This document shows, piece after piece, positions 26,293 through 35,231 of a stretch of DNA of 35,550 nucleotides. Made by a program: the position numbers and the translations under genes. Each line of letters opens with the position of its first letter. Positions within the stretch are counted from its first letter, which is position 1. The notes beneath the pieces are model-generated. The model searched no databases. It saw only the letters and a list, made by a program, of their open reading frames with translations, and was not told the DNA's origin. The DNA is from Paracoccaceae bacterium (lineage in GTDB: Bacteria; Pseudomonadota; Alphaproteobacteria; Rhodobacterales; Rhodobacteraceae): NCBI GenBank assembly GCA_009924775.1, contig RFQY01000006.1, positions 1 through 35,550 on the forward strand. Direction: 5' to 3'.

Positions 26293-34196
<7,904 letters not shown>

Positions 34197-34199
<3 letters not shown>

Positions 34200-34215
34200 C
34201 TTTGCCGCAAAGTGT
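34197..34215. repeat. Perfect 19-bp palindrome beside the bchF operator
   Basis: ACACTTTGC, one central base, GCAAAGTGT: nine-base arms without mismatch. It shares its first three bases with the ACA end of PpsR operator 1 and falls between the -10 box and the expected -35 of bchF. Its polarity (ACA...TGT) is opposite to a PpsR site, so another dimeric regulator, or PpsR cooperativity across half sites, could be involved. Confidence 0.6.
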
Positions 34216-34324
34216 CAGGCGCTGCAACCACACTGTGTAACGCAGATATTCTCTACCTAAACTTCTGTTTTTAATTATTTTTTAATGAATATCTCACGCC
34301 GCCACCCCCATCAGGCGCGCGTAA

Positions 34325-34342
34325 TGTAATTTTTCTTTGACA
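34325..34342. promoter_or_regulatory. PpsR/CrtJ operator 2 (ppaA side)
   Basis: TGTAATTTTTCTTTGACA is a second perfect TGT-N12-ACA, 143 bp centre-to-centre from operator 1. Its last six bases TTGACA (34337-34342) make a consensus -35 box pointing to ppaA; the -10 at 17 nt (GACACT) is poor. Occupancy by PpsR would block ppaA, giving repression of its own antirepressor, and the two sites could be looped together. Confidence 0.75.
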
Positions 34343-34433
34343 AATTCGCGCCGCGCATAGACACTGATCTTGACGTTACGTCCACCCATGCAGGGGCTTG
34401 GTGTTGGACCGCGTGCAGATAAGGAGATCTGCC

Positions 34434-35231
34434 ATGCCCTGTTTGATGGAAGCCCCAAAGCTGGCGCCACAAGGCGATCAGCAGCTGGTGCAGCGCTTGG
34501 CGCTGCGCGTGGTATCAGAGCTGACGCGCAACAGCTGCCCCCCCAACGCAGCCCCCAATGCCGAGTTTCGCACGCTTTTGGTCCAGCTGGCCTATCGCGG
34601 CGATGCCGACACTGCCGCCCAGGTTTTCGATTACATGAAACGCCGGCGCATGTGCGCCGAAGCCGTTGTCGACATCTATCTGCCCGCCGCCGTGCACCAG
34701 ATTGGCACCGCGTGGCATGATGGCGAGCTGAACATTCTAGATGCCACGCTGGCGATTTCGCGCCTGCAAGTGCTGCTGCGCGATATCAGCAGCAACTGGA
34801 GTTCCGACAAAACCGGCCGCCACAACAGCGGGCGCGTGCTATTGTTGCTGCCCCCGGGCGAACAGCACAGCATGGGCGCCATGGTGGCTGCCAGCCAAAT
34901 TCGGCGGGCGGGGGTTTCGGTAAAAGTGGGGCTTTTGCCCGACATCAAGGCCATCTCCACCCTTATGGAAACATCGCGTTTCCAATCCGTGTTCATTTCC
35001 GCCTCGAACCAATCTGTTATTGCAGAATGTAGCCAAATGATCGCCACCATCCGCGCCTCGGCGCATCCCGCTGTTCCCATTGTTTTGGGGGGCGGTTTAG
35101 CCGTTGCCAACCACACCCAAGCAGCACATGAATTGCTAAGAAAACAGACACGTGCTGACCATGTCACCGCAGATGTAAAAACAGCGCTGCAAATATGCGG
35201 CTTGGTGAATGCGGCGGTTGCCGCGGGTTGA
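34434..35231 (+). CDS. ppaA: PpaA/AerR B12-binding antirepressor of PpsR
   Basis: A 265-residue regulator with a helical domain and a C-terminal cobalamin-binding Rossmann domain. GTAWHDGELNIL (91-102) is akin to the W-x3-E-H motif that covers the upper face of B12 in CarH-type receptors, here W-x3-E-L. His145 in PGEQHSMGAM falls at the position of the cobalamin-ligating His145 of Rhodobacter capsulatus AerR. These proteins bind adenosyl- or hydroxocobalamin and modulate PpsR/CrtJ repression with light. The ATG at 34434 has aaggag seven bases upstream. It is divergent from bchF and 100 nt ahead of ppsR, the order known in purple bacteria. An upstream GTG/ATG extension is not supported. Confidence 0.93.
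   Translation: MPCLMEAPKLAPQGDQQLVQRLALRVVSELTRNSCPPNAAPNAEFRTLLVQLAYRGDADTAAQVFDYMKRRRMCAEAVVDIYLPAAVHQIGTAWHDGELNILDATLAISRLQVLLRDISSNWSSDKTGRHNSGRVLLLLPPGEQHSMGAMVAASQIRRAGVSVKVGLLPDIKAISTLMETSRFQSVFISASNQSVIAECSQMIATIRASAHPAVPIVLGGGLAVANHTQAAHELLRKQTRADHVTADVKTALQICGLVNAAVAAG

Follow-up and report, generated by a model that had tools for sequence, protein, structure and literature searches.

Genes and predicted PpsR sites between bchF and ppaA

The window (the whole 35,550-nt stretch of DNA that was analysed) carries bchF and, transcribed away from it, ppaA/aerR, followed by the start of ppsR (Table 1). Contig 140 from this genome carries, before bchE, a C-terminal part of ppsR; this part matches TIGR02040 (PpsR-CrtJ) with 386 bits and contains PAS domains and a Fis-type helix-turn-helix (HTH). 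The bchF-ppaA intergenic region holds two PpsR sites, one proximal to bchF and one on the ppaA side. The proximal operator has the consensus arrangement, a TGT and an ACA half-site with 12 bp between them, and is predicted to bind PpsR; its right half, TTGACA (34182-34187), stands where relatives have the -35 of bchF. A small palindrome, GACGT-T-ACGTC (34374-34384), is also present ~50 nt before ppaA and is kept in the sister genome, the second of the two genomes of this genus that were compared.

Table 1. Features of the bchF-ppaA region, in window coordinates.
Feature	Position	Strand	Basis or remark
bchF, 2-vinyl bacteriochlorophyllide hydratase	33621..34130	-	Runs leftwards from 34130
171-bp block identical to sister genome	34048..34218	-	Pairwise comparison
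Family -10 position of bchF, here TTACTG	34158..34163	-	Conserved A2 and T6 missing
Proximal PpsR operator TGTAAATTATAATTGACA (TGT-N12-ACA)	34182..34199	-	TGT and ACA invariant in 68 promoters, from loci selected by those letters
Candidate upstream promoter CTGACA-N17-AATTAT	34190..34218	-	Palindrome mostly in its spacer
Perfect 19-bp palindrome ACACTTTGC-N-GCAAAGTGT	34197..34215		Direct sequence check, Markov expectation
Extra half-site H1, CTGACACTTTGC, upstream arm of palindrome	34207..34218	-	Third-best half-site in window; possible -35
Degenerate upstream PpsR-like site TGG-N12-ACA, TGGTTGCAGCGCCTGACA	34213..34230	-	Left half not scoring as half-site
Distal PpsR site TGTAATTTTTCTTTGACA, ppaA side	34325..34342	+	Second PpsR site of the intergenic region
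ppaA/aerR, B12-binding co-regulator of PpsR	34434..35231	+	B12-binding domain E 1e-7; same place beside bchF in relatives
ppsR start, cut by contig end	35308..35550	+	Open frame

A perfect palindrome overlapping the PpsR operator

The perfect 19-bp palindrome reported by a first-pass annotation of this DNA is real: it reads ACACTTTGC-C-GCAAAGTGT, and its arms are 100% complementary. It is the sole palindrome with arms of at least 9 bases in the window, for which a first-order Markov model of the window predicts 0.35 odd-centred palindromes, or 0.7 odd- and even-centred ones, per 35.5 kb. A single such palindrome per window is ordinary, and its place rather than its length is noteworthy; for any one promoter of ~90 bp, the chance of containing one is roughly 0.2%. 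This particular palindrome sequence has an expectation of 0.01 in the window even when three mismatches are allowed. It does not abut the proximal PpsR site, as the annotation had it, but overlaps that site by three bases.

The order of its elements is everted (ACA-N13-TGT), so the palindrome is not itself a TGT-N12-ACA PpsR/CrtJ operator. The FnrL motif TTGAT-N4-ATCAA has no match with at most two mismatches near the palindrome. An intrinsic terminator was considered and rejected; the palindrome has no T run and is not among the terminator-like sites.

Architecture of the bchF promoter

Scanning genomes with BchF yielded 80 loci. Besides the window and the sister genome, 66 of them could be aligned at a proximal PpsR site; ten records of plasmid-borne gene clusters were left out of the promoter counts. 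The right PpsR half is TTGACA in nearly all of these 66 relatives, and a conserved TAnnnT hexamer follows 18 nt further on, which makes TTGACA the likely -35 of bchF. Both genomes of the window's genus lack TAnnnT at this family -10 position, where they are among the lowest scores of the 68 promoters. The genus has lost the family -10 and kept the -35/PpsR half TTGACA, and a promoter shift may have occurred. CTGACA at the corresponding upstream position was found only in this genus, in both genomes. The palindrome had been placed between the -10 and -35 regions. That placement fits the candidate CTGACA-N17-AATTAT and fails for the family promoter, where the palindrome lies upstream of the -35; because the family -10 is missing in the genus, the original placement may still be correct.

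Resemblance of the palindrome arms to PpsR half-sites

Relatives show a bias in the bases that flank the PpsR half-site on its outer side, with G before TGT and C-T-T-T after ACA, and ACACTTTGC occurs exactly at the right PpsR half in 8 of 66 relatives (expected frequency given ACA, 0.0011, or 0.11%). Judged by these promoters, the arm ACACTTTGC is what naturally flanks a PpsR half-site on the outside. In the bchF sense the downstream arm reads GCAAAGTGTAA and consists of the left half and outer flank of the resident operator. A canonical PpsR tandem with a similar flank, aaaaagTGTAA, is found at bchC in the same genome.

A 15-base half-site matrix was trained on the 66 other species, with the window and the sister genome left out. 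Among 71,070 window positions it puts the two resident halves in the first two places and the upstream arm, CGCCTGACACTTTGC (H1), in third place, a rank that is partly circular because the symmetry of the palindrome makes this arm a copy of the resident half-site. Independent of the symmetry is the outward continuation of the match as TGACA, of which only TG lies outside the palindrome; H1 runs on beyond the palindrome as CTGACA, which is nearly the half-site TTGACA. For two PpsR halves taken from different species, the probability of sharing six flank bases is 0.0023, ten times the random rate. This value is still low, so the complete symmetry (over CTTTGC) is only partly explained by the arms being PpsR halves. 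The 18-mer upstream, TGG-N12-ACA, has a left half (the partner of H1) that scores -9.7, and so falls short of the second site of a tandem PpsR pair.

Extra half-sites upstream of bchF in relatives

In 21 of 66 relatives, which are not independent of one another, TGTMA is present as a direct half-site 12-15 nt upstream of the operator, compared with a mean of 0.5 and a maximum of 4 in 2000 trials with shuffled flanks. When 198 whole genomes were scanned, the direct arrangement occurred at 20 places in 19 genomes, 18 of them directly upstream of bchF, and the reversed pattern gave 0. One relative, for example, has TGTCAACTTTAATG-TGTAAG. Such a solitary third half-site (TGTCA/TGTAA, direct, at a distance of 12-16 nt on the upstream side of the -35-overlapping PpsR site) is almost peculiar to bchF, and a limited literature search returned no published description of it. 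The genome of the window has the direct arrangement at its crtA/crtI promoter (TGTAAAGCGCTTTG-TGTAAG), and at bchF it has a half-site in the other orientation instead. A scan for this other orientation recovered full tandem sites as well as solitary CTGACA elements, the latter lying upstream of bchF in other genera.

Gaps between sites in relatives cluster at 7-8 bp, with some at 17-18 bp, and a gap of 13 bp was found only in the window's genus. Tandem pairs have gaps of about 8-9 bp, and widening the gap from 8 to 9 bp is enough to alter redox-dependent binding in Rubrivivax (PMC4452267). Compared with the usual gaps, 13 bp amounts to a shift of about half a helical turn, which would put a canonical tandem dimer on the opposite helix face and argues against a standard cooperative pair.

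A composite of PpsR half-sites as the favoured reading

We favour the reading that two PpsR-type half-sites, placed back to back, make up the palindrome as a lineage-specific variant, and assign it a probability of about 0.5. The first-pass annotation had offered an additional dimeric regulator or a second layer of PpsR/AerR binding, and the latter is better supported: both arms of the palindrome resemble a PpsR half-site with its flank, and relatives commonly have additional half-sites at bchF. The genome also encodes both PpaA and PpsR with its HTH, consistent with a role for PpsR.

In the proposed arrangement, a PpsR dimer would hold the resident operator, and H1 would be contacted by an additional PpsR subunit or dimer, perhaps together with the neighbour-encoded B12 protein PpaA/AerR. 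This contact would carry the complex further upstream, into a stretch where the -35 of a relocated bchF promoter may lie; H1 may double as that -35 box, because the genus has lost the family -10. We infer the binding of PpsR to H1, and any effect on bchF expression, from sequence. CrtJ/AerR binding extends beyond TGT-N12-ACA at R. capsulatus bchC (PMC5362033), and by analogy with the extended CrtJ contacts that AerR brings about there, a solitary half-site is plausible as a contact.

A more specific proposal, which we regard as doubtful, is that bchF has a three-half-site operator. PpsR would then also read a back-to-back pair 13 bp apart, and the third half-site, direct in about one-third of relatives and flipped in this genus, would be contacted only by PpsR-PpaA and would set the light or B12 response. 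If the favoured composite reading is correct, PpsR operators at bchF often carry a third half-site missed by the TGT-N12-ACA consensus, and the change that AerR/PpaA makes in PpsR binding, from repressing to activating, would gain a concrete DNA element. As regards the palindrome, the result is mostly deflationary: a new regulator is not needed.

Conservation of the palindrome and the case for chance symmetry

The exact palindrome is kept at the same place in the sister genome. It was found in none of the 392 other family genomes (394 scanned, including the two genus members) and is absent from the bchF promoters of the 66 relatives; matches with one or two mismatches occur in nine of the 392, in surroundings that are unrelated as far as examined. 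Within the genus, a 171-bp block is identical between the two genomes, whereas bchF as a whole is 89% identical and the rest of the intergenic region (the next 215 bp) 74% identical. The block includes the first 83 bp of the bchF coding sequence, unchanged even at third positions, and could be a recombination tract, a slow region or a constrained 5' region. Since the identity spans coding sequence, conservation of the palindrome is suggestive only and not independent evidence of constraint.

These data bear on a rather unlikely, though far from negligible, alternative: that the symmetry arose by chance, one arm coming from a PpsR flank and the other from unconstrained sequence, and that the palindrome as such has no function. 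The 0.7 palindromes of such size expected per window would fit this account, as would the occurrence of the palindrome in a single genus represented by two genomes, its location within an identical and possibly recombinant or slow block, and its lack of a regulon. Chance accords less well with a palindrome that sits exactly at the operator and promoter, and with an identity block whose edge falls 3 bp outside the palindrome, just before the diverged 215 bp.

A possible relocated -35 box

The upstream arm could instead be mainly a -35 box, the bchF promoter having moved upstream to CTGACA-N17-AATTAT, so that the resident operator covers the -10, H1 covers the -35 and the palindrome is largely spacer. 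We consider this unlikely as the main explanation; it is compatible with the back-to-back PpsR half-sites favoured above. The loss of TAnnnT and the presence of CTGACA upstream in both genus genomes point towards it, as do the start of the identity block exactly at CTGACA and a geometry similar to that described for R. capsulatus bchC. Against it, the candidate -10, AATTAT, is poor on the family -10 matrix (-5.6), and a perfect TATAAT lies 20 nt from CTGACA.

Search for a regulon and a separate dimeric regulator

Pattern searches of the window's own genome gave no second site with at most two mismatches. With three mismatches there are two other sites (about one expected, by our own estimate), one lying in a glutathione transferase gene and the other ahead of a gene with a uvrB domain; the latter site, though present in both genus members, was rejected as imperfect and unrelated to photosynthesis. 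The core CTTTGCNGCAAAG was found only once more, inside a helicase-like reading frame. Five viral contigs match, all with one identical and apparently coding sequence around the match. No regulon-like set of sites emerged from the own genome, the genus, the 394 family genomes or the viral contigs. The search before other bch and crt genes that the annotation had proposed showed the palindrome to be absent from the bchC, crtA/crtI, bchG and ppsR/bchE promoters of the own genome. The bchG promoter has a perfect palindrome of its own, TTGCGAG-A-CTCGCAA, directly after a PpsR site and before TTGACA, and this is kept in the sister genome.

The suggested additional dimeric regulator of photosynthesis genes is thus not supported, given the lack of a second genomic site and of conservation outside the genus. 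If bchF were under a separate dimeric regulator (such as one of Rrf2, TetR or LacI type), its operator would account for a 19-bp perfect symmetry that is typical of such operators and exceeds the needs of PpsR half-sites. A precedent exists in R. sphaeroides, where the operons of bchF and bchC are directly repressed by the Rrf2 protein MppG (PMC4263372); the mark of MppG would thus be expected at bchC too, where the own genome has no palindrome-like site. With the perfect site also absent from 392 other family genomes, and no recurrence found at other promoters or at a regulator's own gene, we judge this explanation to be quite improbable.

Comparison with known systems

One of the closest known systems is the bchF-ppaA promoter of Dinoroseobacter shibae, which shares with the window the same intergenic region and a PpsR site that covers the predicted bchF -35 (PMC10890935). 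The promoter has four candidate PpsR motifs, and PpsR repression was demonstrated with bchF-lacZ, mutation of the half-sites derepressing bchF. Unlike in the window, a second motif lies downstream, over the -10 and start site, and the accessible part of the description contains no 19-bp palindrome. The extended binding of AerR-CrtJ resembles our proposal in that PpsR contacts DNA beyond the consensus together with a B12 co-regulator, and differs from it in being located at bchC, mainly downstream, and without a palindromic element (PMC5362033). In known CrtJ/PpsR pairs both members are full palindromes, spaced by 8-9 bp or lying far apart, whereas the second site in the window is a half-site whose partner is degenerate, and the spacing is 13 bp. 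The tandem operators of R. capsulatus bchC are nevertheless like the window in half-site sequence, in promoter overlap and in their setting in a photosynthesis gene cluster with the PpsR and AerR/PpaA genes alongside.
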